From positions 93,942-157,941 of the forward strand of contig CAJNOJ010000238.1 of assembly GCA_905250025.1 (NCBI GenBank): a DNA stretch of 64,000 bases. The letters are read 5' to 3'. Of this stretch, positions 34,165-64,000 are shown in pieces (position 1 is the stretch's first letter; each line of letters begins with the position of its first letter). Made by a program: the position numbers and the translations under genes. The notes beneath the pieces are model-generated. The model ran no database searches. It had not been told where the DNA came from and saw only the letters and a list, made by a program, of their open reading frames with translations. This DNA is from Adineta ricciae. Its lineage: Eukaryota; Rotifera; Eurotatoria; Adinetida; Adinetidae.

Positions 34165-35392
34165 TTATGTCTTGAATCGAACTTGTAATTGACGGCCATG
34201 GAATGGAGTCGCATTTAAACTTTGAACTGCCATTTGAGCTTCTTGATATTGTTCCATGGCAACAAAAGCGTATCTAAATCGAACAGTTTTTTTTCAAAGT
34301 GACAATCGACAACGAAAACAACAATTCTCACCCTTTGCATAAACCAGTATTAAAATCGATAATGATATCAACACGAAGAACACGTCCAAATGGTTGAAAT
34401 AACGCATAGATTTCTTCTTGTGTAGCGCGTTGTCCAATACCATAAATATAAACGACATGGCCACCTTTAGGAGATTCTGGCGGAATAACCGCTTGACCAT
34501 AGTCTCCATAAACAGCTTGCTGAGCACCCGGTGGTCCATATGATGATGGTTGGGGTGCGCCATAATAGCCCGCATACATATCCGCTTGCTGTTGATAGTG
34601 ATGAGGCAAACCGAAAGGATTGCCAAACGGCCCATAGGTGGATTGAGCGGCAACAGCTACGCCATTATTCCATTGACCTTGAAGTTGAGAAGCAGTTCTC
34701 GCTTGGTAATTAGCTGATTGAGCACCCAATGGATCGTATCGATTAGTTCCGTAATTTCTCGGTTGTTTCAATTTAAATGTATTACTTCCTGTTTGATTTG
34801 AGTTCCCTCCATTTGAACTTATCGCTTGTCCACCTCCGTAACTATTCATTGATGGCCGATTAGTTGTAACAGTTGTTGAAATTTGATGTTGAGGGTAAGA
34901 TGATTCATTTCTTTGTTCGTTATTTTGTTGCGATGAATATTCTCCTCCAGCATATTCATTTGAACCGCTTGCTTGCTGCTGCTGTTGTTGTTGTTGTTGA
35001 GGTTTAGTTCCACCGTTATCCCTTTAATTAGAAAAAAAGAACATATTTTACTCCGGATTTCGATTGTGCTGGAAGTTTTCAAGTAAAAAAATGAATGAGA
35101 GTTTGATTCGATTACAAAAAAAAGAATTCAACGCGATTTCGGAGAAAAAAAATAGAATAACATTCTCGTTCTCTCATATCATTTCTCTATTTTCTAACTC
35201 ACATAATTAGGAGCGGCTTTGAAGACTCGCTTAGTCACAGCGAAAGTTTCGATAGAATAAAAGAGGAGACAAAAATCTAAAAATAGAGGAAAAAAAAGTC
35301 CCAAAAAAAAATTAAAAAAAAATTTCTTCATGAAAATCAAAAACAGGAATTATGTTGATTACCCGTCATGAATTTCATTAGTTGAGTAGAAT
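34165..35392 (-). CDS. ELAV/Hu-like RNA-binding protein, C-terminal part with one RRM
   Basis: Three joined exons on the minus strand: a 30-base micro-exon (35363-35392, FYSTNEIHD), a main exon (34332-35021) and a last exon (34165-34273). The protein has a Gln run, a Gly/Asn/Gln/Tyr-rich low-complexity region, then one RRM. RNP2 is VVYIYGI; the DFNTGLCKGYAFVAMEQY block holds RNP1; the end is LQVRFKT. DFNT-CKG-FV and the end at the RRM3 position resemble the third RRM of ELAV/Hu proteins, which bind AU-rich mRNA. No RRM1/RRM2 exons were found upstream, so either the gene continues across long introns or this is a shortened single-RRM relative. The Q/Y-rich region suggests a condensate-prone protein. 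Confidence 0.75.
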
Positions 35393-37354
35393 CTAGAAAA
35401 AGAAAAGTTTCAAATAATTGCTTTTAATTTTGAAATCATTCATTTCGTTTTGACATTTTCGATCATCATTGATTAAAGCTGGATGTTCATGTTGTGCAAG
35501 AGAAACCTTGAAACGGTAAATAATAGACATCTTTTTTCATTTCACTTCTTTATCTCGAATTTTATCATCAAATGAATAATCATATTTCTCCACCGAATAC
35601 TTTCGGTGAAAGAAAAACTGAAGTAGTATTCATGTCAATGACGACGAAAGTAAATAAACAACAACTTGGAAATATTTCACCATTTGTTTCGGTCACATGT
35701 TATAATGTCCGAGGAAGCGACGATTAATAACTAATGCATTTTGTTCATTTCATTACAACCAATAATTGACGATAAACAGACGAATGACGCGAATTGATCT
35801 CGTTGTAAAGTATCATTAAGGACGCGTTTTTTTAATCAATTGACTAAATAAATTCAACCATATTGATACATCACGGTGTGCCTTGTCCTCCTTTTATTCT
35901 TTGTCTTCTGATAGATGTCGCCACGTCACAACGAACTCTTTTTGTTTTGTTTACTGCACGACATAAGTCAGCTTGGATAGTTCGAAAGAGGTGACTTGTT
36001 TCTCATGGCAAAAAGGAGTTTCTTTATGCAATGAATAATTCCGTGAGAAAAAGAACATAGGATTATGTAAGTTGTTCACAGAAATATAGAATATTGATAA
36101 TCTGTTTAACGAATTTTTCATACGCGAGTTCAAATTTATGTCTACCTTTCGTTTCATATCAAGATCATTATTTACTATTAGAATGTATATATGAATGCCG
36201 TAATAAAGAATCAACAGTTATAGAAACTTTGTAGAATTGAAAATAAAACTGTTTCCATAGTCAATAATAAGTATCTTTATATCAATCAATACTGTGTTAT
36301 TACCTTTGGTTATATCAATATTTAATCATGAGTTGTGACCTATTTTTTTTCTTGTATAATGTGGGCATTATGTTAGTTGTAAGGGTTTGACTTCGAGGGC
36401 AAATCACAGCGAAAGGAGCAACTGGGATAAACCCTGGAGAAGAAATAAGCTGTGACAATTTTTCTCTCTAGAGGATTGTAACCTAAATTGTCGTTTAGTG
36501 TTATCATTAAAAGTGATAGATATTATAAAAGGAAACCTAGCACACTTATTCTTAAATTTGGAGTTTTAGAATGGCAAAATCACGTTAATAGTAACAGGCG
36601 ATTGCTTTTACGTCAAGATCGTCCGACATTGAACTTATTAAAGTCTGCTCTCCATAGTTTTTAATATTTGTATGTACGTCTCTTTTGTTAGATAATCAAA
36701 TTTGTTCTTATGTGATCATCTGAATCTATTGAATGCCTACACAATTGTGATAACTGTTAGTTTCAGCCAGCAAAACAACGTTTACTATATAACTTAAAGA
36801 TTAATTGGAATTATATGAAAATATATCCTCGGTTCTTCAACAAGGTTGGTAAATTTTCTCAAATATTCCACGGAACGAACTAAGATCTTAAGTTCACTAT
36901 AGTAGTTACCTTTTATTTTAGTAGCGATGATTTTGGTAATACTGAGATGTACTTTATGTTTTTCTAGAGATGAAATCATAGAATTTTGTCGTATCTCGAG
37001 GATACAATAAGGTATTCAACGATCTGAAATTGCTGAAGAAAATACTGCTGACCTATAATACATCCGATTTATCTAAATAAAACAATAATCATGAAAAGAG
37101 AAGATGAAATTGGTTTCTATCTATTGGTGACTTGGTCTTTTTCTTGGAAATTTGCTTTTTTTTTCAAATGAGAAAATAATCCTATAATTGTTTTCCTTCT
37201 CTACGACTATCTTCGTATAACAAATTATTGATTCATCAATCAGATGAAATTTTTTTGATAAACGTCATGAATGGAAGAATCATACGACAGAAATGAGTAA
37301 TTAAATAAACATTTTGTCAGTGTGCAGACTGATCGTGTTTTGTGCAGGATGTAT
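35393..37354. other. Intergenic or 5' intron region
   Basis: Upstream exons of the RNA-binding protein gene may be hidden here, but I find no convincing coding segment. Short frames near 35951-36214 and 36794-36979 have no motif. Confidence 0.4.
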
Positions 37355-38686
37355 CTAAATCTGTTGAGGTTGTTGTTTATGGGCGTATCGTTTCAGTGAA
37401 CGTTGAACATAACGTCGAGGACAAAGAAGTTTCATAAATGCCAAACGAAATTCCCTTGATGTTAATGCATAGAGAAGAAAATTCAGCTAAATGAATAGAT
37501 GAGATGAGAAGTAGGTCAACAAAAGCAAACGATTAACACATACAGCTGAATTAGTGTAGCCGAGCCAAGTAAATAGACGAAAAAGTTGTTCTTTGGAATT
37601 TTCAAAATTTAAACGAAATACACCGGTAAGCACGAGAAAAACGAAAAATGGCAACCAGCATGCTATAAATACACCCATGACAACACCAAGTACTTTTGTT
37701 GCTTTGTGTTCACGCGAAAAACGTGACCAAGTTTGTGTACGACGAAGTTTACGTAAATGATGAACGAATAACACAGGAAACGAAACAGGTTCGAGTGCAG
37801 AGCGCACTGTCGGTGTAACACGAGGAAGAGATGGTGATCGAGAGTATTTTCCTCGATGTATTCGTAAAGTTATTTTTTCTGGTGTATTCGTTATTGCATT
37901 AATGTTTTCGAGCGTCGTTGCTGCTGAAATATTTCGACTTTTCGTAGATCCGAAACAAAATCGAGGTAAGATGGGCGATAATTGATATGTTTCACCGCTA
38001 GTTGTTTGTTTATAACCTTGCCGAAATGCAATCATTTGTCGACGAGCAAAAATCAAAATTCGTCCGTAAACAAACACCATGATCAATAATGGAATATAAA
38101 AAGAGACGGAAGATGAAACCAAAATAAACACGGGATCAGAAGGAAATTCACATCGTTCAGATATTGTTTCATTAGTCGCAGTTTTATTTGACACTAAAAA
38201 GTAAAATTCCTTCGATTCGTTCAGATGTTCAAAGAATTAATTACCTATTGAATTATTTTTTCCTCCAAGAACCATTACAGTTGGACCAGCAATGATTGCT
38301 GAGCAAAACCATATACCTGCAATAACAATTGACGAATGCCGAGCTATGAAGGATCGTGAATATCGAATCGGTGACGTGATTGCTATGTATCGATCAAGTG
38401 CAATAACACAGAGAGCAAGAATAGATGCGGTTGACGCGCCAACGTCAGATATATGCCATAGGTGACATAAGAAGCGAAAAGAAGATGGTGTGGTTAACTC
38501 AAAACAAATCGCTAATGGAATAACGATCATTCCCACGCAAAGATCAGCGACAGCTAATGAAACGATGTAATAATACGTTGCTGAATGTAACGTTGTTTCA
38601 CGATAGACAGCCAAAATAACCAGAAGATTGCCCAATAAAGTTAAAAAGCATATGAAAATTAATAACCATATTGCTGGTAGAATCAT
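37355..38686 (-). CDS. Rhodopsin-class GPCR, biogenic-amine receptor type
   Basis: Exons 38245-38686, 37544-38193 and 37355-37486 (minus strand) give 407 residues with seven helices. Family marks are LGNLLVILAV (TM1), SLAVADLCVG (TM2), D81 followed by VGASTASILALC (TM3 with the amine-binding aspartate), DRY at 98-100, FIACWLPFFV (TM6) and LGYTNSALNFLLYAL (TM7). The combination DV-x-x-STASI plus CWLPFF points to dopamine, serotonin, octopamine or similar ligands and G-protein signalling at the plasma membrane. The third intracellular loop is long and basic. In TM7 the NPxxY proline is replaced: the motif reads NFLLY. The second extracellular loop is short with a candidate Cys. The start gives a very short N-terminus, so an upstream exon is possible. 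The exact ligand cannot be told. Confidence 0.9.
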
Positions 38687-40041
38687 TTTTTATTTTCTTA
38701 ATATGTATTTCAATGTGAAGAGATCATTAATTGCAGTTGTCGAGTTGCATCTTAGTTTTCTTTGTGTATTAAGAGTAATTCTGTCTGTCTAATCATGAAA
38801 AGGGAAAAAGTTCGACGCCGTTCCAATATCATTGATTGTTCTCTTCTTTTTTGGTTCGTTTCTCTTGAATAAAATGATGATCTATAGAAAAACAAGTTGC
38901 TCTCGCTCGAGTGATCGATGATGACGAAGGCTGGTGGCAAGAAAAGCGACAACTCAGATTCAATTACTCGTAGAACGTGTGTGATCTATATACAACGCAA
39001 TTAAACTGATGCAAGAGACGCTAGATATTGTTAACGTTCGTTTTTTTTTTCTGGGATATTTTCTTTTGTACAGAGCCACATATATCTTTATAATAACATT
39101 CTCAAGGTCATTGCATTGACATACAATTTCACTCTTGTGCTATCTGCTTTTTTTTCATACCAACTGGTATGTATATCAATAGGAAAAACATCTTCAATGA
39201 CATTTATTGACGACCATTAATCTTTTTTCTACATCGATCTTATGTTTATTTGTCGACATTTACATCGAGCAAAAATATAATTACATCTTGTTTTGTTCTT
39301 ATACAAATAATTAATTTAAACGAAAGTCAAAATGAGACATTCGATTTTAAAGAGCAACAGTTGCGAACTATGACTTGCATAGGTTGATTTTCGGTACTAA
39401 GGAAAATCAACAATAGTTCTAATTGATTAATTGATTTCTGCATGATTGAGATCAACAGATAGTTTTCCAGATAAATTTTATCGAGATAAACTAATAATGC
39501 TAATAGAGATGTAATATTCGACTTCCGATAACGATTATATTGAAGATGATTTTCTTGAGAAAAACGTCTTCATGTTTATTATCGTTACTAATAAATGTTT
39601 TCCTCAAAGAAGACTGTAGATCATTATAATACAAGAAATGATTAATATTCATGACGAAAAAAAACATATTCGTTTGAATGAACAATAATTAAAACTATTC
39701 TTTTCTTCAACAATCATCAGATATGCATGTCACGAATTCGATCTTGTCTTTTTCTTTAAAGGCTGTCAATGACACAAATAAATACGCAAATTTCGTTTTT
39801 TTGCGTAAATACTTTCCTTTTATTTTTAGAAACAAAAAGATGCGATCATCGTTGATCTGACGATTTCCTCTTTGTCAACGTCGCCATTATACCGAACAAT
39901 GTTATAGAGTACTTAAAACGTGAGAACAGGGAAAAGGGAAAGAAAAGAAAGAAAGGAAAGAAAGAAAGAAAGAAAAAAATCCACCATTGTAATGCAACGG
40001 TAGTACGTTTCATAAAATATATTTGCCTTGCACTGACTGTC
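38687..40041. other. Divergent intergenic region between GPCR and GCLC
   Basis: Must hold the promoters of both genes. A GAAA/AAAG simple repeat lies at about 39930-39977. No other gene is supported. Confidence 0.4.
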
Positions 40042-42530
40042 ATGGGTCTTTTATCAGAAGGCCGTCCACTAAAGTGGACTGAAATAAAAGATGCATTAAA
40101 ACAGATTCGAACTTATGGTGTTGATCAACTTATACAAGTTTATCACAAGTGTAAAAACCGTCAACGAGATGCGTTTACTTGGGGTGATGAAGTACGAAAT
40201 TCAGTGTAAAATTCCTTCGTTCATATTGGATATTTTTTCTCATCAAGGTCGAATTAACGTTGGTAAGATTTGATCATGAAAATAAGAAGGTTCAATTGTT
40301 ATTGAAAGCTCATAAATTATTACCAGCATTACGCAAATTAAACGAAGAAATTCAAGATGAGTAAGTCGGGTCATTTGGTATTTATAAAGTGTTATCTATC
40401 GAGATTTGTTTTATTCTTTGTAGGGCATGTCGTATAGCTTGGCATCCAGAAGCATGTGACTTCGTTGTCGAAGGTGTGCCATTCCAACCGTATGGATTTT
40501 TACCCTCGCATTTTAATACCGTTGAAGCAAATATGCGATTAAGACGAGAACAAGTTCAAAAGCTTCTAGCTGAACAATCGGATTGTGATTTCATTTTGAA
40601 TATTGCGGCTTTTCCAAGGTAGGAAAGTTTTTTAGCAGTGAATAGAACCTTGTCGAAAATTGAATAGGTATGGTCAGGGAGCATATACACATCCGGCTGT
40701 TGAGTATGGTCCACCCCATTCCGCCGAAGAATCTTTATGCTTTCCTGATTCATTGCTTTCACCAATTCATCCAAGAACTAAGTACATTTGACCTCAATCG
40801 ATTTCATCTTTATGATTGAGCACTCGTCTTCGCCTATAGATCTTTATCGGAAAATACTCACGAACGGCGGCAAGGAAAAGCTTCTGTTAATATTCCAAGT
40901 AACTCTATTGAAAACCTTAACTAATTAGCTAAATTATCGACTTTGAGAGGAATTGTCTTCCTAGCAGACGAAAATTTTGATGGCAAGACTGCATCCATCT
41001 TTCATTAGTTCTATTTAGATTAGCAGTGTATTTTGTCTAACATTGTACGATGTTTTTTGTTATTACTTTTAGTATTCAAAGATTCTTCGACACCGTCTCC
41101 ATTCCGTGATGATTTGTTTAAAGATGATCCTAATGTGAAAGATGATCATATTCATCTGGATAGTACAGCAGCTGGTTGGGGTTGTTGTTGCTTGCAAGTG
41201 ACATTTCAAGCTGAATCATTTGAAGGAAGCCTTCATCTCTACGACCAGTTATTACCATTGTGTCCAATTATGGTAAAAATTTTTCTATTCTCATATTTTG
41301 TCTGAAAATTAAACGTTTGATAGTTGTGCTTGAGTGCAGCCTGTCCGATATGGCGTGGCTATTTGTCTGATGTTGACTGTCGTTGGAATATCATCAGCGC
41401 AGCAGCTGACGATCGAACAGCTGTAGAGAGACAGCAGGAAAATATGTTGTCACGTTACGGTCCCACGCCTTTTTACTTAACAGACGAAAAAAAGCACTTG
41501 AATGATTTGGATTTTCCTGTTTGTGATGAAGTCGTTCAAAAACTGATCTCTCAAGGTTGTAATGCGTGCGATTAAGTCTGAAAGGATGAAATATTTACTA
41601 ATTTTATAGGAATACCTGAAACATTATCACATCATTTTGGTCATTTGTTCGTTCGAGATCCACTGGTGATTATCGAAGAATTCCTTCATCCGAAAGACGA
41701 TTCGAATTCATATCATTTTGAAGTTCGTCGTTAGTAACTTTGTATATATTATTCTTAAGAAAGTCTTCTTTTAGAATTTGAATTCTCTCGTATGGAATAC
41801 GCTGCGATTAAAACCGCCACCATTAGATGACGATTTAATGGGTTGGAGAGTAGAATTTCGACCGATGGATGTAAACTTATTTGATCGTTTCATATCGACA
41901 AAAGAAGTAAATTCGTTCTTGCTTTTCTTTAGATTCAAATGACCGACTTTGGCAATGCTGCACTCACTGTCTTTGTAGCATTGATGACTAGAGTTATTCT
42001 AACATATAATCTTGATTTTGCTATTCCAATTTCTCAAGTGAATGAAAATATGAATAGAGCTCATCATCGTGATTCGGCACGTCAAAAAAAATTCTATTTC
42101 CGATTTGGTAATGAAATATCTGAAATGTGTATGAATGAGATTATCAATGGGAACAACAATTTTCCTGGTTTGGTTCCACTAGCACGACAATATGTCGGCG
42201 AAAGAGAAGATATTGATGCTGATACCAGATTTACTGTCGAACAATATCTTCTACTTGTTTCAAAACGAGCAGCTGGTAGACAGTTTCTCTTGTTTCATGT
42301 TTTTTTTTCTTATTGAATGCAATTCTATTTAAGGAACTTTAATGACAAATGCATCTTGGATTCGACAATTTGTACTGTCACATCCATCGTACAAACAAGA
42401 TTCAATTGTAACTGAGGAAATTCAATATGATCTCGTTCGGAAAATGGAACAAATATCTAACGGACATGAAGATTGTCCGCAAATTCGACAACCAAATATG
42501 GAGACACATACCGATTTGCATGCTGAATAA
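40042..42530 (+). CDS. GCLC: Glutamate-cysteine ligase catalytic subunit
   Basis: Eleven exons (40042-40191, 40248-40360, 40424-40618, 40668-40781, 40840-40898, 41073-41272, 41324-41555, 41610-41722, 41775-41870, 41933-42275, 42334-42530) give 603 residues, against about 637 in vertebrates. Marks: MGLLSEGRPLKW at the start, WGDEVELTLVRFDHENKK, FNTVEANMRLRR, CCLQVTFQAES with its cysteines, RGYLSDVDCRW and MGWRVEFRPMD. The enzyme joins glutamate and cysteine using ATP, the rate-limiting step of glutathione synthesis, in the cytosol. Introns are mostly 50-65 bases and all phases agree. Glutathione supply fits oxidative stress tolerance, but nothing in the upstream sequence shows regulation. Confidence 0.96.
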
Positions 42531-43315
42531 TGAGAAAACAAAATTTTGCTTTGCTTTGTAATTTCGTAAGACGTTGCTTTTGCCCGTATTCCTGTGAAAA
42601 TTCAGCAAGATATTAACAATAAATATATACATTTTCGTGCGTCAATGGATAACGAGAAAATGCAAGTTCATTTTGTTCCGCAGCAAAAATCGAAGATTTC
42701 ATTTTTCTGATCATAAAAATTAATTACGAATGTTTGAATATGAAAAACATGTCCAAATCGATATTTTTCGATCACAATTCTCTTCTTGAAAGGGCGTGCG
42801 GTTGATATTGAGAGGCAAGGGCTAAGTGTCGAGAATGAGGATCAGAGTACCTAAATACTTTAATACGTGAACGCAGTTCAACTTTTCGAGTTTGACACTA
42901 TTAATTGTTGCCTGCCATTGGTTTTGTTTAAAGTGAATCATTGCTTCCAAACATAAATCTAAATTTTTACTCATGATTACGCATCAAGATGGCTATAGCT
43001 TCGTATGATACACGATATGAAAATGAATTCAACACGAGAAAATGAAACTATGAGTCAAGCATATGTACGCTCGTTGTATATATGTGGACAAGATCGTCAA
43101 TTGACTATAAACAAGTTCGAACTACATAGTCCATATTATCATACTTTGCATATGTATGTTAAACCAATTGAATTATCTTATTGTTCATGCACATCCGATT
43201 TTGAATATATTTAGGGAAATATGAAACGGCATTAACCGATAGAATTGCCTGAAAAGTGAAAACAGACGAATATTTGAATGCATCTTCGCATGTCATTTGA
43301 GCAATGAATATACAG
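42531..43315. other. Intergenic region after GCLC
   Basis: No gene recognised; a 69-codon frame at 43005-43214 has no motif. Confidence 0.4.
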
Positions 43316-43410
43316 CGGTGACATCTCCTATTGATTCGATATTCTTAATTATACATTTGCTATACAAAAACGGGTGGACCATGTTCTTTGTCGTGATTGG
43401 CCTTTTAATT
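43316..43410 (+). promoter_or_regulatory. Upstream blocks shared with the 45.9-kb paralogue
   Basis: CGGTGACATCTCCTATT (43316-43332) and TGATTGGCCTTTTAATT (43394-43410, containing an inverted CCAAT) recur at nearly the same spacing upstream of the duplicate gene, while bases between them have changed freely. This suggests retained control elements, though a recent duplication could also explain it. Confidence 0.5.
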
Positions 43411-43496
43411 GTTTGATACAGACGACCGTTGAATTTTTATGTGAACAAAACGCACAGGTCACTCATCGTTGAACTTAAAAGTTAAAAAATACACAC

Positions 43497-43757
43497 ATGG
43501 CCGATTCAGATACAGCTCCATTACACCGCTCAACAGAAATTAAAGACTTAACACATCTAACTGAAAAGGACAAAGAACACATTGCTGAAGATGCTGAAAC
43601 AACAGACACTTCAATTCATCGAAGTCCAGAAGTGGAAGATTTAGCTCATATCTCGCCTCAAGATCTGAATAAAGCTTCAGCTGATGATCATTCTCATCTT
43701 CATCATCACCATCATCATCATCATGAGCATCAAACTACAAATAAACAAACCAACTAA
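43497..43757 (+). CDS. Small hydrophilic protein with APLHRS motif and His-rich tail
   Basis: A single-exon frame of 86 residues beginning MADSDTAPLHRSTEIKDLTH. It is very acidic and polar, with no signal peptide or membrane segment. Two related motifs occur inside it: APLHRSTEIKDLTHLTEKD and SIHRSPEVEDLAHISPQD, so the protein is an internal duplication of an (x)(L/I)HRS-x-E-(I/V)-x-DL-x-H unit. The end HSHLHHHHHHHHEHQ looks able to bind metal ions. A paralogue without the His tail lies at 45911-46114, and a distant relative at 52923-53192. Function unknown; composition suggests an intrinsically disordered cytosolic protein. Confidence 0.75.
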   Translation: MADSDTAPLHRSTEIKDLTHLTEKDKEHIAEDAETTDTSIHRSPEVEDLAHISPQDLNKASADDHSHLHHHHHHHHEHQTTNKQTN

Positions 43758-44029
43758 TATCTCTCTGATTTGTGCATTGTTTGTTTTTGGAAAAAATATA
43801 GTTGAAATTAGTACTTGATAATAAAATTTTCCAAGCATATTTCATCAACTTTATCGGGTTAATGAGACGATCAATGAACGGAGAATCTATAATTGATTTC
43901 TATTGATCTACAAAGAATATAGGATATATACGTAAGTAAACGTCAACGACATATCTCAGTTGTTGTAATTTATTCGCCAGTTAACAGAATTAGTAAGGCA
44001 TAATGAGATTTGCATTTGATCATTATCTT

Positions 44030-44284
44030 CCCAGGTCAAACAATCCGACACGGAAATGGTCGGTTCCGAGGTATTCCAGATGAGCGGATCCGGTGGCCGG
44101 ATTTATCTGGTTTGGGCCGGAACCGACAGGAACATGTCAAAACCGGTAGCCAGAAACGGTTACCGCATTTCTCCATCGAATTCCTGGCGTTTTCCGGACA
44201 GGTTCCACTCAGAAATGGCGTGTTTCCTCAAGGATTTAGTCGGATATTCATGGAATTCTGCTTCAGGAACCATCGTTCTGCGGG
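44030..44284. mobile_element. GC-rich miniature inverted-repeat element, copy 3 (diverged)
   Basis: Starts CCCAGGTCAAACAATCCG and ends with the worn inverse GGAACCATCGTTCTGCGGG; about 255 bases with the same CCGG/CGGATCC-rich interior as the other copies. TT flanks both ends. Open frames through it are chance. Confidence 0.75.
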
Positions 44285-45054
44285 TTATACTCGATCTATA
44301 AATCAAAAGAAAGCAAACTCTGACTATTATTGTTGACATTTACTCGACTTTTAAATATTAAAAACAGAAGATATTAACTGTAAAAAAATATATCTATGAA
44401 GAAAACAACAGTATGCGTATATCTGTCTGAATTTTCAATGTCTGTGTTTTTGTTGATAAATGTTCAGCTTATTTCTTGTGACATGCATCATTATTGCAGA
44501 TAATATATACTTTTTTATTAGCAATTTGTTCCATAATCTCATAAGGAGATATTTGATTCTATTAAAGCCTCACAAGCAATAAGCACGCAACTAATCAACT
44601 GCAGTATATTCATTTTCCGAAGAATTACGTTGTGTTTTCCAGTGCCCTTCGTTTTTCGTCAAAGTACTATTTAAACGGATTAAGCCCTCAAGTAGCTCTA
44701 AATAAAAAAGGTTCATACACATATATAATAATATAAAACAATGTAGATGAAAACTACTATGACGTATTTCCGAACCATCTCGGTAACAATAAGAGTAATA
44801 CACTTGGCGATCAATTGAGTAGTCGGATCAGGAGCCAATTAAAGACGGCCGAAACGAAATAAAAGGCGTGACACCACAAGAAAATTTTTCAAAGTTGAAA
44901 CTTTTTTGTATAACTTTTTTGTAATGTGGGAAATGAAATAACTATTTTACCAACTTGGTGACCTTTTTTGCGAAAGCTGATGATTTATTAATATCAACTG
45001 ATAGTGTTTTTGAGCGATATATAACTCTGATGCCACTGGAGATAATGGTAGCAC

Positions 45055-45233
45055 CAGAACTGGGCAACTCAATTTAAAAAATGGTCAACTCAGTTCAATT
45101 TTGAGTTGAAAGGAACTGAGTTGGGAAGAATTTCTAGAGTTGATGAATTGAATTGAATTGAGTTGGAAATTTTTTAAGCATTACGTAGTTGAGTTGAATT
45201 GGACACCTTTTTGAGTTGAGTTGCCCAGCTCTA
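45055..45233. mobile_element. hAT-type miniature element with 8-base target duplication
   Basis: A 179-base element starting CAGAACTGGGCAACTCAA and ending with the inverse of TAGAGCTGGGCAACTCAA (16 of 18 matching). The 8-base sequence GGTAGCAC stands directly on both sides (45047-45054 and 45234-45241). An 8-base duplication and YAGAGCTGGGCAA ends are typical of hAT transposons. The interior is made of GAGTTG/CAACTC words. Confidence 0.9.
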
Positions 45234-45737
45234 GGTAGCACTGCTAATCTGATACACATGCTTCATTGTTTAATGCGAAAGCCGAACAACTACATTTAAT
45301 GTTTCTTTTCGTGCTAATGATCATAAGTGTAAAAACCTAAAGAAAAAAGATTGATTAACTCTGACGTTCGAATTATTACATATGTTTATACCAAAATATC
45401 GCTGGATCGCACGAAGGTCATACTTAACGACACATACGATCGATGATGGATAGACCATTATTTCCATGTACCAATAAACAAATTTTTATAACGTTCTTCA
45501 TAAAATCGTAGGCAAACATTTTTTGAAGAGTGATGAGGGTAATTGTCCTACTTGACCAACGTCTATTCTTTTTTCCTCTATATACCGATATGCCATTCAG
45601 TAAGGATGTGCACTGAACAACAGTTTTCTTTCACTTATTGTTTTCGTGACATACACTCATGATCTGAATAAAGATGCAAGTATTCGATAAAAACATTCAA
45701 AATGAATTACCTGCCATTTTACTTAATTTCTGTACAA

Positions 45738-45828
45738 CGGTGACATCTCCTATTAATCAAATTTTTTAAATTATATACTTTATGGCACGAAAGGGGGCAA
45801 ATTCTTTTTCATGATTGGTCTTTTAATT
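45738..45828 (+). promoter_or_regulatory. Upstream blocks shared with the 43.5-kb paralogue
   Basis: CGGTGACATCTCCTATT (45738-45754) and TGATTGGTCTTTTAATT (45812-45828) lie 74 bases apart, start to start, and the second lies 99 bases before the ATG (78 and 103 at the other copy). Confidence 0.5.
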
Positions 45829-45910
45829 ATCTGTTATGGATGGGAACTTTTTCGAAGGAGCAAACACACGCACCATGCATCGTTAGCTTCAAAGGTTAAA
45901 AGATGTACAC

Positions 45911-46114
45911 ATGACCGATTTAGATCCAGCTCCACTACATCGCTCAACAGAAATTAAAGACTTAACACATCTAACTGAAAAGGACAAAGAACACATCGCT
46001 GAAGATGTTCAAACAAGGGATAGTTCAATTCATCGAAGTCCCGTAGTAGAAGACCTAGCTCACGTCTCACTGCAAGATGCAGATAAATTATTAGCCGCTG
46101 ATGAAACAAAATAA
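45911..46114 (+). CDS. Small hydrophilic protein, paralogue without His tail
   Basis: A single-exon frame of 67 residues, MTDLDPAPLHRSTEIKDLTH onward, nearly identical to the 43497 protein through the first repeat and close through the second (SSIHRSPVVEDLAHVSLQD). It then ends ADETK where the other carries its His-rich tail. Gene and upstream region were duplicated together (about 2.4 kb apart, same strand). Function unknown. Confidence 0.75.
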   Translation: MTDLDPAPLHRSTEIKDLTHLTEKDKEHIAEDVQTRDSSIHRSPVVEDLAHVSLQDADKLLAADETK

Positions 46115-46262
46115 ATTCCATAGGGTGACACATCTTTCGTGTTTTATTCATCATATCATAGCATTGCTCTCGCCTATCGATCTTGTTTTGACAATAAAGT
46201 CATTTGTTCGTATGGTTCTTTGTTCAATCAAATAAATAAACAATTCATATTTCAGAATAAAA

Positions 46263-46953
46263 ATGGGTGCATCCGGAACCAAACGAGTCATTCAAGCTGA
46301 ATTATCTCAAGACCAACTTGACTATTTAAAAATGCGAACACGAATGACAGAAGAAGAAATTCAAAAATGGTTTCGTACGTTCATATAATTTAAATATCTG
46401 TTTCAGAGTTGAATCTTTTTCTTAGATGGCTTTTATAAAGATTGTCCGGATGGTCTCTTAACACAAAAACAATTTATTCTCATGTATAATCATGCGTTTC
46501 CAGACGGAGATGCAACGCAATATGCTAAAAGAGTATTTGTTACTTTTGACAAAGATAATTCGGGTTTGCGTTTTTTTTCTTTATCGTCATGAAGAACATT
46601 CCGTTTCGAATTCTCTAGGGAAAATTGATTTTACTGAATTTCTCTTAGCAATGGATTTAATGGAAAATGGCAATTTAGATGAAAAACTTCGTTATGCATT
46701 TCAATTATACGATGTTGATAAAAACGGAATTTTAACTAAGTCAGAAATTGAAACAATTATCAAGATGATTCTTTCACTCCGTGGTGAAGGAAACAATGAT
46801 CGTCTGAAAAACGATGTTATGAAACACTTGAATCAATTTATTACAAAATTTGATGAAAATAATGATGCGAAAATAAGTCAAGATGAATTTTGTCGGATTT
46901 GCTCACAAGACGAATATCTTAAAGAATTCCTATCACCAAATTTTTCTTCGTAA
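46263..46953 (+). CDS. Neuronal calcium sensor (recoverin/frequenin/hippocalcin type) EF-hand protein
   Basis: Exons 46263-46374, 46426-46563 and 46619-46953 give 194 residues, the usual family length. It begins MGASGTKR (Gly2 is a likely myristoylation site), followed by the degenerate first EF-hand region (FYKDCPDGLLTQKQF). Three full loops follow: FDKDNSGKIDF, YDVDKNGILTKSE and FDENNDAKISQDE. NCS proteins bind calcium and switch their lipid tail to membranes to regulate receptors and channels, mostly in neurons. The last loop has Ala at the position usually Gly, so binding there may be weaker. A small paralogue gene ends only 149 bases upstream. Confidence 0.92.
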
Positions 46954-47906
46954 TTCCTTTTCGTTTGTTATACTTGAAATTTCTTCGGTTTCGTCACGTG
47001 AAGCGATTCAACTGAATCAATCTCGTGCTAAAATTTCTTTACAATATTCGAGAAATGAAATAAATGCTTTTTGTAAATGAGTTGACATTTGTCTGGAAAT
47101 AGATAGCCAAGTTTCAAAACTAAAAATACATATTCACTGCGCGAGACATTCGTATTTAGACGCTGGAAGGCAATAGACGAGATTTACAATTATTTCAATC
47201 AATTATACTTCAAAAAGAGTGTTATGCCAACGAGAAAGTCAATATTGATTCATATGTATATGTTAATTGCAAGATAGAGATAACGAGTGTTTTGTATACT
47301 TTCTTCAATACGAATCTGTGTAGTATTTAGCTCATTATCAGCATGAAAATAATTTTTCATCGAAAATAGATGTTTCTCTCTTATCCTTGCAGAGAGCTCA
47401 TCAATAGCTGGAAATGTTAGATGGCAACCTCATTCATATGATCCAATGTGCTAATCAAGATTAGAAGGAAATAATAAAAAAAATGAGAGGCAGTCAGAAT
47501 TTGATATAAGTGATGAAACTGAATCGTTATTCTTCCTATTGATGTCATTTCAAACGGCAAATCAAGGATATTACGAAGAAATTAATCAGATGAAAAACGA
47601 ATATGAGCAGTATAAAATATTTCATTTATTAATCAGTAGAAGAATCAATGGGACGGGTTTGGAAAATTCTCTGTTTAACATTCATTAATGAATATAATGT
47701 GTCGTTTAACAAATGGTGTGATTGGTGACGACATCTATGAGCAACTTTTTTTAACAGGACGGAGGATGATGGTATAATATAGATTGGAATCATTTTCTGA
47801 TGACTATGCTTTATGTGTCACTGGGTGACTGACGCACTGTTTGCTTATACTATCCGTACTTTTGTTTGGTGAAGAAATTTCTCTTTTGATATAATCAACG
47901 ACGAAT
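46954..47906. other. Intergenic region before TSG101
   Basis: Short frames only; the promoter of TSG101 must lie towards 47906. Nothing else recognised. Confidence 0.4.
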
Positions 47907-49275
47907 ATGCCAAAACAATCTCAGAATGAAGTCGATCAGATGGTTCAACGGGCGCGAGTAAAACATGAATAGAAGAAGGAAATAATTCGTTTGAATAAAA
48001 TCTTTCTTTTTTTTTCTTCAAGCCATTAAATCGTGACGTAGTTCGTCGTGATCTTATTCAAGCGGTTAATTCATCAGCTAGTAATTTAGTTTTAAAACTA
48101 TGTGAATATTTTTACAATGACGGAACATCGAAAGAGCTGCTCTGTTTATGTGGAACGGTGACATGTCACTATAAAGGAAGTCGATATAATATTCCAGTCG
48201 AAATATGGCTTCAACCTGATCATCCGAATAGCGCACCATTAGGATATGTTAAACCAACAACAGATATGTATGTATCATCGACAAGTAAAGATGTTCAACC
48301 GGATGGAACTATTGTTATTCCGTATTTGAAAAATTGGCGTCATGTAATACTTTTTCGTTCGATAGGTTTTTTTTCAATTTACATCTGATTTTATTGTAGC
48401 CAAATAGTGATTTAAATCGTTTGTTAACCGCAATGTCAGACGCATTTAGTCAATCTCCACCAGTGTTTTCAAATGCTGGTTCAGCAACACCATATCCAAC
48501 AACTGCGTCAATGCCAACGCCACAAACATTCATAGCAAATACAGGTCAACCTGCTTCACATTCATTTACGAATGGAACCTCACGACAACAAAATCTTGAG
48601 AGCGTTTATCGAGCATCTCTCGAATCGGCTGTCGAGAAGAAAATTACGGATCGTCTTAGAGAAACCGTTCAAATAAGCAACGTACAAATTGATTCATTGC
48701 GAAAAACGGAACAAGATTTAACAGACGGTCAAAGAAAGCTTCAAACATTAATTAATGATGCACAACAACAGCAAACTCATGCACAGGTTGTCATCTTTCA
48801 ACTAAGAATTCTTTGACAGAAGTGTATTTTTGTTTCAGAACTATATTGCAACGATTCGAGCAAAAACGAATGAAATGTTAGATGCAGCACAGAAAATGTC
48901 ATCAGCTGGGAAAGAAAACTCAGTTAAAGATGATGCTGTCATCACACCTGCACCTGTCTACAAACAGTAATGTCCTTTGTTCGTTTTCTACTCACGATTT
49001 ATTCTTCATTGTTTTTTTCTCCTAAAAAGACTTTTGCAAGCTTATGCTGAAGAACATGCAATTCAAGATTTGCTATACTACCTTGCAGAAGGACTTCGAC
49101 GAGAATCAATCGGACTAGATACTTATTTGAAAGTATGTCGTTTGTTTTTGTATTTCGAAATTCGAATGATTTATTTGTTTGTATTTAGCATGTTAGAGAA
49201 CTTTCTCGAAAACAATTCATTTTGCGAGCAACCATGCATCGATGTCGACAAATTGCTGGCTTATCTGTGAAATAG
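47907..49275 (+). CDS. TSG101: TSG101/Vps23, ESCRT-I subunit
   Basis: Exons 47907-47957, 48023-48343, 48400-48786, 48839-48966, 49030-49132 and 49189-49275 give 358 residues. An N-terminal UEV domain (YNIPVEIWLQPDHPNSAPLG, then YVKPTTDMYV and a KNWRHPNSDL end, no catalytic Cys) is followed by PPVFS and a Pro/Thr/Ser linker, a coiled coil (about 190-270) and the C-terminal steadiness box (HVRELSRKQFILRATMH). TSG101 sorts ubiquitinated cargo into multivesicular bodies and also acts in abscission; the UEV binds ubiquitin and P(S/T)AP motifs. All six exons agree in phase. The tRNA-like gene lies 55 bases beyond the stop on the other strand. Confidence 0.93.
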
Positions 49276-49329
49276 ACACTTTTCTCTCTTATTCAATAAA
49301 ATTCAAACTACATAAATAGATAAAAACAA

Positions 49330-49402
49330 TGAAGACTCCGAGCATCGATTTCGGTGCCTCTCGCATGGAAAGCGAGCGCTCTACCGTGTGAGCTAAGCCC
49401 TC
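49330..49402 (-). tRNA. tRNA-like gene: alanine-type body with UCC (Gly) anticodon
   Basis: The reverse strand folds as a full cloverleaf. The acceptor stem GAGGGCT pairs with AGTCTTC (seven pairs, two G-U) including G3:U70, with discriminator A73. The D arm GCTC/GAGC has A14, G18, G19 and A21. The anticodon stem CTCGC/GCGAG encloses TTTCCAT, anticodon TCC. The T arm CCGAA/CTCGG has loop ATCGATG, with one A53-C61 mismatch. A T-run terminator (TTTTT, 49326-49322) follows at once. The TAGCTC and CTCGCTT/GCGAG segments and the ATCGATG loop are those of eukaryotic tRNA-Ala, whose anticodon would be NGC. So it is either a decaying tRNA-Ala copy or a chimeric tRNA that could put Ala at GGA. The worn B box (A52, A53) favours decay. 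Confidence 0.6.
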
Positions 49403-49857
49403 TATGTATGAAAACTTGCTTCTTTTAATTCTGTTATTTTGTATTATACATGAAAATTCAAATAAATAACTTAATCATTCGAATACCTGATCTATGCGTG
49501 TCAGTAAGAACGTTCTGCTCTGAAGCTTGAGTGCGATTGCTGCTTGAAGAATAATTCATCTTTGATAAAAGATTAAATGGTCATGACATGACAACATACG
49601 ATGATTAATTCGAATGACAATTGTTACAAGCAAAGATTTTCTTCAAGAAAAAGCTGATCGAGTAAGCAAAGTCAAACTGCTTTTGATAGTTGCTATATAT
49701 GAAAGTTAAAGAATAATTCATGATCATTCTTTTTGGTTGAGTCGATTCTTCTCATTTCATACGAGCGTCAATGCAATATTTGACCAAGTCATTACTATCA
49801 ACTTCTTTTTATTGCAAATCAGGTTAAAGATAAAAAAAAACATGATAGAAAGGGTCG

Positions 49858-50198
49858 TCAATCTCGTTTATTCGGTGTTGATCGTGATCCACTTTTACTG
49901 CTGCCCGGAACATAATCACCACGTAATGCTGCGGTTACACTTTTACGTTGTCGTTTTCTGCTCAGGTAAAGAAAAATAGCGACTGCAAGTGAGAATGCCA
50001 AAAACATTAGCCAATTCTTGGCCGCTAAACAAAAGAAGGTATAGATAAAAGGCTGTACACAGCATAAAAATCAAAGAAAACCGTACCCATTTCAAAAATA
50101 TACGACCATTTGAGAAGACCTGTGTCTGTTTCTGGCCGAGATGAACGTGTTGCCTGTTCTATTTCGGGTTCATCTTCAATTGTTGCATCGTCTGACAT
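49858..50198 (-). CDS. Small single-pass membrane protein, 92 residues
   Basis: Exons 50087-50198 and 49858-50024 (minus strand) join in phase. The N-terminus is acidic (MSDDATIEDEPEIEQATRSS). One helix follows (about 42-57, WLMFLAFSLAVAIFLYL), then a basic Ser-rich tail (SRKRQRKSVTAALRGDYVPG). The acidic-outside, basic-after-helix layout fits a single-pass ER or plasma membrane protein with its C-terminus in the cytosol, although the opposite cannot be excluded. I do not recognise the family. Confidence 0.65.
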
Positions 50199-50302
50199 TT
50201 TATTAACTTTTTAATCTACAATGGAACGAAACAAAAAAAGATTTCGAAATCTTGCTTTTCTTTTCTCGATAAACACGGCACAAAAAAAGGAAAAAAAGCT
50301 GT

Positions 50303-51644
50303 TTATTGCTGCTTTTTCGTTTGTTCAGTAGTTGGCACAGGAGCCGACCAATAGTATCCTAATTGAAATATCAGCAAAGAAATCGCCAATGTATTTAAGA
50401 CGTATGTCCAAATAAGCGTTGGATCGCCCGTTTCTTGAATCGATGTAAAGATGCGTGCAATGGAACCAAAGAATAACATTAACACTGTAATCGCAGAAAG
50501 ATTCCCTGTTGATTTATCTCGATATATGCTAATCGATTGAAGTAAACGACTGATTAAACTGAAAACGAGTGATAAGCCAGCTAGTGTATTAACCAGCTGA
50601 GGCGGAAGTAATTTTTGGAACATTAAAAACCCAGCAATGCTGCATAAAACTAAAGTAAAGAGGAAGAAATGAATCTTTTTTCTGATTAATTATTAAAATA
50701 CTAGATATCTTCTCTTAGTTGGTTGGTGCCTCTCTTTGATAAAGTTCTTTCATAGCTAAATTGTTTTTTTTGTTCTTCAACAATGAGATTATGTAAATTA
50801 TCTCTACTATTTACATTCTTTTACCGCAGGCAATCCGTTTTCCTGACTTCAAATAGGCGTAACTTTTTAACTATCTCATTATAAGCATCAATACATATGT
50901 ATGTAAATGGATAAACATATGGCGAAGGAATGATAGACAAATATTTAAGGTTTATCTGACATTGATATTTTCTCACGCAATTTTAATGCCTTATACTTTT
51001 AAATATTCTGTTCATAATCGTGTTATATGTTTTATCACTGACCAATAGAAGAACATTAGCGTCCAAATACACGTTCTTTCTTTCCTTCCTTCCTTCATAT
51101 GTCATACTCGTGCCTTCAATCTCATTCGAAGTTTAATCGAAAAACGGACCTTGTTACTCATCTTCGTAATTTCGATAAAAATATGGCATCTTGGAGCTTC
51201 ATCTAAATCATGAGAAAGAAACAAAACTCCATACGAACCTAAGTACACGACGACGGCTAAATATCTTTTTTGATAATAAAGTACCAATAAGATGATTAAT
51301 AAGGTTTGAATAAAAAGAAAATATGAGTCACCGTAGACCGAAAGTGCGTAGCCTGATGTATAACCATATGCCATCGTTCCAAATATCGCGACTAACATAA
51401 TGGTTTCAGCAAAGACACTGATACCAACGCCTGATTTGTTCCATTTGATTTTCACGATTTGAGGAAGTTTAACTAACAATGAGCCAACAAGTATCGCATA
51501 GCCAAGTATTTTGCTTAACAACATTTTGTTGCAGGCCATATCAAAGAAATGTTGTTTTAACACAAGTTCATCATAACAATGAGGCGATAGTAAACCAGAC
51601 ACCAATGATTCAAATGATGATGATAGTAAATCCGAGAGACCCAT
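50303..51644 (-). CDS. MPDU1: Mannose-P-dolichol utilization defect 1 protein (PQ-loop family)
   Basis: Exons 51239-51644 and 50303-50649 (minus strand, joined at a GTTCGT donor chosen because it aligns without a gap to the animal family) give 250 residues, against 247 in human. The N-terminal half has CYDELVLKQHF and the first PQ loop (GSLLVKLPQIVKI). The second half has the conserved SAITVLMLFFGSIARIFTS run followed by IQETGDP. The tail is Lys/Gln-rich, a possible ER retrieval signal. MPDU1 is a multi-pass ER protein needed for use of dolichol-phosphate mannose and glucose in N-glycan, GPI and O/C-mannose synthesis. It lies head-to-tail with the small membrane protein gene, 104 bases apart. 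Confidence 0.93.
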
Positions 51645-52922
51645 TTCTTGTGTTTGCGTGCTTGATTCGTAGAATTAATCGACGGACGAAAACTTCTTTC
51701 GAGAAAATCTTGTACGAGCGTAAAAACAAATGAGTGAGAAGAAAAATCCTAATGAGCAAACGTGTCCACCTCTGGAACCAATCCGATCTTTAGATAATAG
51801 ATGTCGGTATAAACAGAAATCCTATATCAAAATTACAGACACCTTGCATTAATCATAGTCATGTACCCGAACATATAGAGTTGAAGAAGCTTACATCGAT
51901 CTAATGGCAATGACTCGATTCGTCATAATGATTGCAATATTTCTGCGATTGACGAAAACTTCTCCCACATGTGATAGAGTTAACCAAATCATTTCCTTTT
52001 TCTGCTTTGACCTGGTCTTTTGCAAGTGCTGAATATACAGTCTCATGTATGAGCTGACAAACCACTTTAGATTTTGGTCTATCGACTCTATCAATTATTA
52101 GTACAGATCAAGCGACAAGCTCACATCATGTTGAGATCACTCTGTAAAGTGTTTTAATGTCATGTATGTCAGTTTCGTAGGAAGTTTGTCGTTAGATATT
52201 TAGCTTTTCTTTTATGATTAAAGTGAATTTGATATTTTATCAAATTATTTTGATGTAAAAAGCATCAAAACTGAAAATAAAAAAGGAAATTACATTTTTC
52301 ACTTAGTGGATTTGTTTATCTCAAATAATAGAAAGATCTTTCATAGCGAGTAGCATAGATTTAACCAGTGATGCTGATTAGTTTTCAGCCTCCGATGTGA
52401 TGAGTGGCGACTGATGAGAGGAAATCTTTTATTTTGCATATAGAGAATATATATATATATATATCCAAGGTTTCTTTTCTCTTTTGAGCCGAAAGAAGAA
52501 AATAAGTTTCTCTTCTAAATGCAATCTTCCTGTTTTTTTTAATGTCTATATTCATTATTATCCAGAAAAACGACAGGCAGTAGTTTTCTTTCCGGTATAT
52601 GTCAATAACTAGTGAACACAATTTTGTTTCACAGACTCGAGTTCTATTTTCACCCATCCTGAGTGACGTTTCTTTTCTATACTTGAAAGTTACTTTAGAA
52701 GTTAATTCTTTTCAATTTGTCTACAATTGAACAAATGACGAATTGATTCGATTGGTATTCATATACCATTTAGACAAAAGGAAATCCAGCTGAGACGAGA
52801 GAAGAAAAATATACGCTTACTTGATTAAACAAGCAAGAAGAACGAAAGAAGGAAAGAAAAGAAAAGAAAAGAAAAAGAACCATTCTATTCTTATTTACTT
52901 GTTATTTTCCGAGTTTTGTATA
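51645..52922. other. Divergent intergenic region
   Basis: Lies between MPDU1 (-) and the small gene at 52923 (+). A TA microsatellite is near 52448-52463, and an A/AAAG purine run at 52843-52879 precedes the small gene. No other gene seen. Confidence 0.4.
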
Positions 52923-53192
52923 ATGTCATCACCATCATCTCAAACAGTGTCGCCACTACCACCATCATCATCGTCCTTATATCGTTCAAATGAACTTGCT
53001 AACTTGACCACAGCTTCGCAATTCACGTCGAATTCAACAAGCTTTGCACCACTTCATCGAACGGTCGAGGTCGAAAATCTTCACGATCATATCGATGACA
53101 ATAATGAGCAACAGCCACCCACAGCGTCGAAGAAAGTTTTGACAAAATGTATGACTGTTATTGGAGATGGAAGTGACAAGCAAATTTCTTAG
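52923..53192 (+). CDS. Small Ser-rich protein, distant member of the APLHR family
   Basis: A single-exon frame of 89 residues: MSSPSSQTVSPLPPSSSS, then LYRSNELANLTT and FAPLHRTVEVENLHDHIDD, ending VIGDGSDKQIS. The two units LYRSNELANL and LHRTVEVENL match the repeated LHRS-x-E-(I/V)-x-DL unit of the small proteins at 43497 and 45911. No signal or membrane segment, and function is unknown. I took the ATG at 52923 because the repeat and Ser-rich part start there; the frame is open upstream through a purine run. A damaged copy lies at 63770-63953. Confidence 0.65.
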   Translation: MSSPSSQTVSPLPPSSSSLYRSNELANLTTASQFTSNSTSFAPLHRTVEVENLHDHIDDNNEQQPPTASKKVLTKCMTVIGDGSDKQIS

Positions 53193-56100
53193 CTATTCTT
53201 ATCTTATAGATGTTCTTCATAACTCTCGCTCCTCGTCTTTTACATCAATAAATAAACAGATTCATGAAATTCGAGCTCATCTCAAATTCCGAAACAATTA
53301 AAGTATAGAATTACATAAGAGAAGAACGCTTCGTTTCATNATCGGAAAAAATCGTTGGCAAATGTCATTAATAAACTGCCAACTTCATCCGATCAATGTC
53401 CATTTAGTAGTTTTCGATCGCCACCTTCTTTTATTTGACACGAAAACAAATGAAAATCCATATTCTGTTGGCTCATTGTTCGTTTTTTGTGGAAAAATTA
53501 TAGTAGAGAGATTCACTACGACTTTTCTAAACAAAAATTACTATACGACGAAATGATATATATGAAGAATGTAAGAACACGAGGTGATTTTCAATGTTGT
53601 ACTCTATTTGTTACATTCGTAAGCGCGTACAAGGTAAATGAGAGATATAAAGAACAAATGAGAAAAGTTACATATGGAAGTTGTATCAATACAACGCGTA
53701 TTAGAATTAATTATTGTATTGAACTAACGCTTTCTCTAAACATCCTTTAGCAGCTTGAAGGATATAAAAGTATATTGAAAACGTAAAACGAAAAAGAGAC
53801 TGATAGGGCAGAAAATCTAAGAAAGAAAGAAACATGAGCTGAAGACCAAAATGGAATTTTTTTCTTTCTGTTTATATGACTCAACAAAAGGTAACCATCT
53901 CGCCGAAGAAAATCTTTCGAGAAGGAAATATCAATGAAGAAAAGAAATGTGTCTAAATCTGTAGCATCTATGGTACTCTCAAGCTCTTGTAGACGTGGTT
54001 TCCAATATTAAATTTTAAAGAATTCTCTGATGCTGTCGTGTATAGTTGTTGTAACGACACAAACAATCAATGATGTACCAATCTAATACTTGCTCGGAAC
54101 TGTAACTACAAAAACTCTCTCTTTCTCTCTCAGTATATATAATAGTATTGAATAGAAAGGAGGGCAACTGAACGAAATTAGGGAAGTTATGAGCAAAGAA
54201 TCGCTGTTATAGTACCTCTGTGGAAAGATAACAGTCAGACTTGACTTACGTCACTTTTTATAAGGATAATTGAATATTTGTCAAACACCTGACTATAGTC
54301 GGTTTTATTGAAAGTTTATCTGTCCGCGTAAATTTTAGCTGCTTGGATTCTTTTATGATTACTATCTTTATTCATCATCACGTTGGCTACTGTATGGCAC
54401 AGAAGATGGTCATTAGAAGATACACATTATAAAACTACGTTTCATCTAATGCATGTGTCCTGAAAACGAAAACAAAGTTGTATAACAACTTGTTTATCTT
54501 TGGAAAACATGCGACCATATAGATTTTCTTTAGAGTGTATTACGCTAGGTCTTAGCAGACATGTAGTAATTAATCGTTGGTGTCCCGTCGGTCCACCACT
54601 CACCAGCTATCAAAATACTTCCAATGGCAATGGAATCGCATTGAAAAAGTGAAAATATTTAGCGAGAGCATTTACGAATACTTCTATAAAGAGATCAACA
54701 AGCGCATAACAACAGTCTCGTCATTTGAACAGCATAGCAGAATTCGAACCCTATATGATAATATTGATAAAGCGTATTAAACAAATACTCTGAGAATAAT
54801 AAGCACGCATTCTCTTTCATAGCTCATTAGCGCTAGAGTCTCATCTGTCTAATATCATTATAAATGGGAGCTTATAATCTACTCAATTGTTACTCCTATT
54901 AACAGTCAATATAACCCGATTAATCATTTATCTCACTAATTATTGTCTGGTCCGGAACAAGGTGTTGCTTTATTGAAACCGATCATTCTACCATCTTGAA
55001 AACTTCAAACCATCATGCCGTCGATGTTCATGCTTTACAGCAAATTTTGAAGATTCGACAACTTCAGTTTCAAATGAAACTCATTACATTTCATAGCAAC
55101 ACAATTGACAAGTTAGTTTATCACGGCTTGCTAAAAGAGTTACGCCCTTTATTTTTTAAATCATCTATCGTATTATTCTTATGCAAACCGATCGCCTATA
55201 GATACTCTTCCAAAAATAAAAAGAGATATGGCGGATCATAAGAATATCATAGAAAAGTAGAATACAGATCAGAATATAATGCTTTTCTTACGGATTCCGT
55301 CACATATTTGCTGAATGACACTGTAGAAATGAACAGCAGAACATGAAACTCTAAATCGCTATCGTTGCACGTATAATCTGCCAAGGGCTTTAGACCATAC
55401 TGGAAACCTTTGAAAACTTCTCCACTTCAAAGGCTTTTAAAAATAAGCATATATTTTCAGATGACCTATCAGCTTTCGGTTAAAGGTCAGTTTAAATTAA
55501 AAGTCTTCCATGCAGCCACTAAACTTCTTCGCACACACAGATAGACCATATTAGAATCATGCAGATCGAGACATTATGATTCGGTTAGCATTCTATGGTT
55601 CAGATATATCTTTAATCACACGCAATCACTTCTGCTACTTATTCGTTTTCGTACAATAAAGCTATGCTGCTCCCTTTCGACACAGGAGGACAGCGGTTTT
55701 TTTTAATCCTCGTCTTAAGTATGTCCTCCGATCGGTACGAAAATTGATTCAGATCTGAAATTGTTTTCGAATATACTTTGAATTAGTTTTTACTTCGATA
55801 GCGATTTCACATGATCTTGAAAGTTTCTCTACGAGTTGAAGCTAAGAATAAGCATGTGAGATCCTGCCAGGTACAGGATGTAACCGAGTCTGTAGCTGTG
55901 TATATTCCCAGGCACTCTCGGCAGACGAGAGAGTAAACAAAAGACTAGATGGAAATCGTTCAAAACCTCTTCAAGGATTTTGTACTGTGTAATTCTTTTT
56001 TTTGATAATGTAAAGTGTATCAAAAGCATCTCTTAATAAGCTTATCGTGTGTCCTGAATAACTTTAAAAAGGAGTGCTATTGATTTGCACCGGTTTTCTC

Positions 56101-63769: not shown

Positions 63770-63953
63770 AAGAAAAGCAAAGAACCATTCGAACTCTATA
63801 TACTTGACATTTTTCCAGTTTTGTCTAAAGTCATCATCATCATCGTTACTATATCGTTCAAATGAACTTGCTAATTTCACCACAGCGTCGAAGAAAGTTT
63901 TGACAAAGTGTATGACTGTTATTGGAGATGGAAGTGACAAGCAAATTTCTTAG
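63770..63953 (+). pseudogene. Damaged copy of the small gene at 52923
   Basis: It matches the 52923 gene from about 70 bases upstream of its start through the stop and 3' flank to the window edge. The start codon ATG is AAG here, the SPSSQTVSPLPP part is gone, and 111 bases (37 codons, carrying the APLHR unit) are missing between two CCACAGC words. The remaining frame SLLYRSNELANFTTASKKVL onward is open to the same TAG. Without an ATG it is probably not translated, although an upstream exon outside this reading cannot be excluded. Confidence 0.75.
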
Positions 63954-64000
63954 CTATTCTTATCTTATAGATGTTCTCCATCACTCTCGCTCTTTGTCTT

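Follow-up and report, generated by a model that had tools for sequence, protein, structure and literature searches.

The rotifer Adineta ricciae carries, in the 64,000-nucleotide stretch of DNA analyzed here (the window, part of contig C238 of a 130-Mb assembly), a tRNA gene that combines an alanine body with the glycine anticodon UCC. This gene is probably one haplotype's relaxed, dying allele of a redundant nuclear tRNA-Ala(UGC) gene; decay of this sort, and not an altered genetic code, is the most likely reading.

The tRNA gene and its surroundings

ARAGORN and the Rfam model RF00005 return an identical span for the gene, positions 49330–49402 on the minus strand (73 nt), and its Rfam score, 45.6 bits, is above the gathering score of 29; neither program found a second tRNA in the 64-kb window. 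Read 5′ to 3′, the acceptor stem consists of G1:C72, A2:U71, G3:U70, G4:C69, G5:U68, C6:G67, and U7:A66, followed by the discriminator base A73 (49330). The anticodon U34 C35 C36 (49367–49369) sits in the loop TTTCCAT, the variable loop has five bases (AGGCA), and the cloverleaf is nearly complete. We take the A box to occupy tRNA positions 8–19 (49384–49395) and the B box positions 52–62 (49341–49351). The latter region contains three derived bases, A52, A53, and U62, and an A53·C61 mismatch (49350 and 49342). Four bases past A73 on the transcribed strand begins a run of five T residues (49322–49326 on the minus strand; A5 on the plus strand), by its sequence a terminator of the Pol III type. 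The first-pass annotation, which named no strand, had picked out G3:U70, A73, the anticodon loop, the T run, the A53·C61 mismatch, and a worn B box, each of which is indeed to be read in the sequence.

On the plus strand, what looks like the end of a gene lies at about 49275, at a distance of 54 bases from the tRNA. The exon at 47999–48385 matches the UEV domain, which suggests a TSG101/Vps23-like gene. Copies of this exon are found in the partner allele (93%), at 300 kb on contig C102 (62%), and twice on contig C277 (57% and 53%), both C277 copies containing stops within the matched stretch.

The partner allele

A DNA search of the assembly with the window tRNA, which skips very common words, found 18 places, no other of which carries UCC, and derivation of the gene from a copy at another locus was accordingly rejected. 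One of these places, a 92% match on contig C102 that ARAGORN calls tRNA-Ala(UGC), is intact, lies at the collinear position, and is identical to the window tRNA at 66 of 73 bases; because it has such a partner, the window gene is, by this comparison, not a chance tRNA-like sequence. The surrounding block (window 34648–53339, unstranded; C102:342699–324566) is read as the homologous haplotype. Within it, identity is 90–96% in pieces from about 1 kb upward and 78–93% in smaller ones; for the pair of tRNA loci, it is 94.0% over 3.1 kb. Given this collinearity, and because other tRNA loci of this genome are also paired, at 90–95% over 1.2–3.1 kb, the two tRNA copies are best read as the haplotypes of one locus in a strongly heterozygous genome. 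Separately assembled homologues with a median divergence of 4.55% have been described for A. ricciae (PMC5916493). The Ala(UGC) gene on C102 is thus a syntenic homologue bearing the anticodon of another amino acid, which is what characterizes an alloacceptor shift.

The last 221 bases of C238 (window 63780–64000) are 100% identical to C102:324886–324666. Window 53119–53339 is a 92.8% homologue of C102:324786–324566, a stretch overlapping the former one, and the right end of C238 seems to switch to, or to repeat, the other haplotype.

Seven differences between the alleles

From the partner to the window copy the changes are G2A, G35C, G52A, G53A, C62T, C68T, and C71T. All but C68T are derived on the window copy: the bases that the partner has at positions 2, 35, 52, 53, 62, and 71 also occur in the other Ala(UGC) and the Ala(AGC) genes. 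At position 68 it is the T of the window copy that recurs in the Ala(UGC) and Ala(AGC) genes compared, there paired with A5; this change could have run in either direction, and the G5:U68 of the window may be the older state and the G5:C68 of the partner the newer. G35C (49368) alone converts UGC (Ala) to UCC (Gly). The six other differences are all situated in the acceptor and T stems, where G:C pairs have given way to A:U or G:U and G53:C61 is broken. The two copies agree throughout the A box, in the anticodon arm outside base 35, over the 18 bases that directly follow the gene on its 3′ side, and in the T5 run.

Two pairs have been altered on both sides and remain paired (G2:C71 to A2:U71 and G52:C62 to A52:U62). 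Simulated random G/C transitions gave at least two compensated pairs in 1.2% of trials when six changes were made and in 3.8% when these were restricted to stems; for the five polarized changes the figures are 0.4% and 1.3%, respectively. Relative to random hits on G/C sites, the confinement of the changes outside the anticodon to the acceptor and T stems has p = 0.006 when all six are counted and 0.015 for the five polarized. Both the simulations and the clustering test are post hoc and rest on equal mutability, and they are not independent of each other. Compensated pairs and clustering are a hint that structural selection may have acted for part of the copy's history, or that weakening may have been favored.

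Probable loss of constraint

Whereas the window tRNA differs from its partner at 7 of 73 bases, 12 other paired tRNA copies together differ at 3 of 889 (Fisher p = 1e-6), their spans being those of ARAGORN, which may include one or two flanking bases, and their loci being a non-random set of best-scoring and Ala-like tRNAs (63 of 5943 candidates scored, with loci for 30). These are what remains of 14 pairs after setting aside the window pair itself and L038/L042, not assessable as the best alignment stops short of the tRNA; they include L033/L034, possibly a tandem duplication given that they lie about 8 kb apart on one contig, as well as L014/L017 and L015/L016, neighboring His genes on one pair of contigs. 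The flanks of the 12 pairs differ by 4–9% within 300 bases. For the window tRNA, the rate within the gene (7/73) is not different from that in the DNA flanking it (40/600; p = 0.33). All six of its polarized changes arose in the window copy, against none in the partner (p = 0.03), and these six exceed the prediction from half the flank divergence (p = 0.014–0.038). The Rfam score of the window copy is the lowest of the nine Ala-type genes scored (52.6–60.2 for the others; partner 56.0). A tRNA pseudogene is recognized by the loss of conserved features and by relaxed constraint, and both are found here, the former in the missing G53:C61 pair and altered B-box bases, the latter in the comparison with the paired copies. 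The pattern of divergence looks like relaxed selection on one redundant allele.

The T stem of the window copy is the weakest among 31 listed tRNA strings, some of which repeat one body trimmed differently at its ends, and it is the sole one without five of five T-stem pairs. The whole-molecule folding energy is −27.0, against −33.6 for the partner, and the predicted T arm is non-canonical. The acceptor and T stems taken together yield −9.3, near the −9.8 of the Ala(AGC) genes, a family of 12 copies, and the −9.2 of Thr(CGT), which places the stability of these stems inside the range of genes that work in this genome; we therefore make no claim that a transcript must be degraded, and rapid tRNA decay caused by too weak a pair of stems is weakened as an explanation.

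Identity of the tRNA body

Covariance models were built for two isotypes, Ala and Gly, from four genes each of the same genome, with the window copy and the partner allele excluded from training. The Ala model gives the window tRNA 81.1 bits and the Gly model 40.1 bits, the latter being the lowest among the 14 matches listed for that model. With the Ala model, the panel's other Ala genes, three in number, reach 98.8–102.9 bits (L035 is itself a training sequence, L041 shares its body with one, and the partner, L032, on which the model was not trained, stands at 98.8), and the non-Ala tRNAs of the panel reach at most 57.1. Global alignment gives 60–66 identical bases with the Ala(UGC) genes and 36–38 with the Gly(UCC) genes. 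On the evidence of isotype models and nearest neighbors, the body is that of tRNA-Ala. The first-pass annotation had assigned it alanine identity and had named a best match to tRNA-Gly as the outcome that would speak against this; the best match is Ala, and the anticodon is one base removed from that of Ala(UGC).

Individual bases tell much the same story, with some mixed signals. G3:U70 (base 3 at 49400), a pair common to the partner allele, is the eukaryotic Ala determinant as listed in PMC9976931, and the anticodon is described as not recognized by AlaRS (PMC9976931, PMC11415595), in agreement with the earlier statement that the enzyme relies on this pair and ignores the anticodon. The window tRNA also has A48, A54, and A58; A48 with A54/A58 in the T loop is given as a feature of some eukaryotic tRNA-Ala (PMC7566577). 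Position 15 is C in both alleles, as against the purine that accompanies A48 in the tRNA-Ala of that source, and the NGC anticodon of tRNA-Ala has been replaced by UCC. C35 and C36 are among the eukaryotic Gly features listed in PMC9976931. The Gly determinants C2:G71 and G3:C70, present in all four Gly(UCC) genes, are missing, their places being taken by A2:U71 and G3:U70. On their absence and the 40.1-bit Gly score, a tRNA-Gly gene was rejected.

Other tRNA genes of the genome

A pattern for Ala-like anticodon arms, allowing up to three mismatches, so that more diverged arms would escape, found 20 in the assembly: 12 with AGC, five with UGC, two with CGC, and one, the window copy, with UCC. 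A family of anticodon-shifted genes was rejected on this count. Further copies with the same discord of anticodon and body, which the first-pass annotation had proposed to seek, did not turn up; the UCC copy found is single, and singleness was part of what it had named as telling against its reading. Beside the partner, four further intact Ala(UGC) genes were found. There are also four orthodox Gly(UCC) genes, and the anticodon shift is therefore not needed for decoding. Among phage records, the search produced three Streptomyces phage tRNAs, at 77.5%. The literature on bdelloid and rotifer tRNA genes and on tRNA-gene mutation, surveyed by title, yielded nothing on the window locus.

In all 12 tRNA-Ala(AGC) genes found (L037–L048), U6 and U67 stand opposite each other as a mismatch of the acceptor stem (GGGGATG with CTTCTCC), that is, the whole main isoacceptor family has a mismatched acceptor stem; the Ala(UGC) genes are paired at 6/67. 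Six tRNA-Lys(UUU) genes form a tandem array within about 1.8 kb (L007, 1123–2873, contig C37).

Possible function and rival explanations

The decay of the window copy may be pictured as follows. Redundancy of the Ala(UGC) gene would relax selection on this copy, GC-to-AT mutation would erode its stems, and the gene would be heading toward a pseudogene. The anticodon change may have been a neutral passenger, or else an early harmful hit that was later damped. Damage to the B box, together with a weak T stem lacking G53:C61, would reduce transcription and folding, and little or no tRNA would be made. Because the G3:U70 determinant is retained and AlaRS is blind to the anticodon, whatever mature tRNA is made should receive Ala and could then decode GGA; placement of Ala at GGA by this tRNA is possible, presumably at a tolerably low level. 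An efficient GGA mistranslator should be costly, because GGA is the commonest Gly codon in eight window ORFs (40 of 80 Gly codons). Simple decay accords less well with the nearly complete cloverleaf, the two compensated pairs, the clustering of the changes, the elements left unchanged, and a combined acceptor and T-stem energy near that of the Ala(AGC) genes; on balance, we lean toward a tRNA that is not functional. Taken as ordinary, the locus is a within-genome snapshot of a redundant tRNA-Ala losing constraint on one haplotype and gaining another anticodon.

It is unlikely, though worth weighing, that the window copy is a putative working or tuned-down mistranslating tRNA, transcribed, charged with Ala through G3:U70, and converting GGA to Ala at a low level, with stem changes that are second-site and damage-limiting. 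If expressed, it would give an animal a naturally occurring tRNA that substitutes Ala for Gly. Beyond the identity rules, the two compensated pairs and the clustering of changes in the acceptor and T stems argue for it, as does the report that a lethal yeast tRNA-Ser with a Pro anticodon was made tolerable by secondary mutations, mostly via tRNA stability (PMC6827378). The yeast dampening mutations are, however, described as mostly single-stranded or G:U (PMC6827378), whereas the changes in the window lie in stems, and the sole G:U pair absent from the partner involves base 68, which is unpolarized. The combined energy of the acceptor and T stems, close to that of the working Ala(AGC) genes, likewise speaks against it. 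The first-pass annotation had pictured a tRNA charged with Ala and reading GGA; the alanine identity in this proposal stands, but the evidence leans against a working misreader, given one copy found in the assembly, an intact partner, the loss of G53:C61, three changed B-box bases, the lowest Rfam score of the nine Ala-type genes, and divergence at about the flank rate while other tRNAs are nearly frozen. A particular sequence of events, in which G35C preceded the changes in the acceptor and T stems, the two compensated pairs among them, and these were favored for lowering the amount of the tRNA without unfolding it, giving a heterozygous Gly-to-Ala mistranslator that is tuned down and not lost, strikes us as decidedly unlikely. 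If true, the tRNA would represent in nature what selection for dampened mistranslating tRNAs produced in laboratory yeast.

An identity switch, by which the gene would have been recruited as a minor tRNA-Gly(UCC) charged by GlyRS, is very improbable: C35, C36, A73, G1:C72, and G10:C25 with G45 match several of the Gly determinants listed in PMC9976931, but C2:G71 and G3:C70 are wanting, G3:U70 is kept, and the Gly score is the lowest among the matches listed. We attach as little credence to an assembly or sequencing error in C238. Suspicion might be raised by seven differences in 73 bases, by the attraction of mis-mapped reads to tRNA genes, and by the repeat of the other haplotype at the right end of the contig. 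The flanks, however, show ordinary haplotype divergence (40/600), which marks C238 as a separate haplotype there. Mis-mapping would pull the sequence toward other tRNAs, but six of the seven bases occur in none of the Ala(UGC) and Ala(AGC) sequences compared, and two of the stem pairs differ on both sides.

Comparison with known systems

Nematode nev-tRNAs, which the first-pass annotation had invoked, are reported to have a long variable arm, to be charged with leucine in vitro, to be conserved and correctly matured, and to cause no detectable mistranslation (PMC4300185). The window copy, read here as a dying tRNA-Ala allele, shares with them the discord between body identity and anticodon, and one nev-tRNA type has a Gly anticodon. 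The parallel is otherwise loose, since arm, amino acid, and conservation differ: the window tRNA has a variable loop of five bases, a body of alanine identity, and a single copy found, and as it lacks a long variable arm, its assignment to the nev-tRNAs was rejected. The laboratory mistranslating tRNA-Ser(UGG) of yeast resembles it in having an anticodon-blind synthetase, a changed anticodon, and changes in the body (PMC6827378); that tRNA was selected, with substitutions of the kinds given above, whereas the window allele is natural and altered in its stems.

Closer likenesses are found among natural anticodon changes. Alloacceptor shifts have been catalogued between species by Rogers and Griffiths-Jones in 2014, with position 35 as the commonest site and redundancy as a suggested driver (PMC3923123), and here too syntenic copies have different anticodons. 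Those shifts were between species and filtered for stable structure (PMC3923123); the present one is between haplotypes and has a broken T-stem pair. The human tRNA-Ala variant G35C, which changes AGC to ACC, is reported from over 6% of sequenced individuals and as charged with Ala (PMC11415595). It is the identical position-35 change in a variant allele of a redundant gene, and it is predicted or said to place Ala at Gly codons (PMC6779403, PMC11415595). In contrast to it, the window copy goes from UGC to UCC, which reads GGA, bears extra stem changes, and comes from one assembly. Codon reassignments, for example in the yeast CUG-Ala clade, are considered to originate from duplicates of tRNA-Ala genes whose anticodons have mutated (PMC11415595). 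The window allele is thus a new instance of a kind already known, unusual in the several stem changes that stand beside the anticodon shift.
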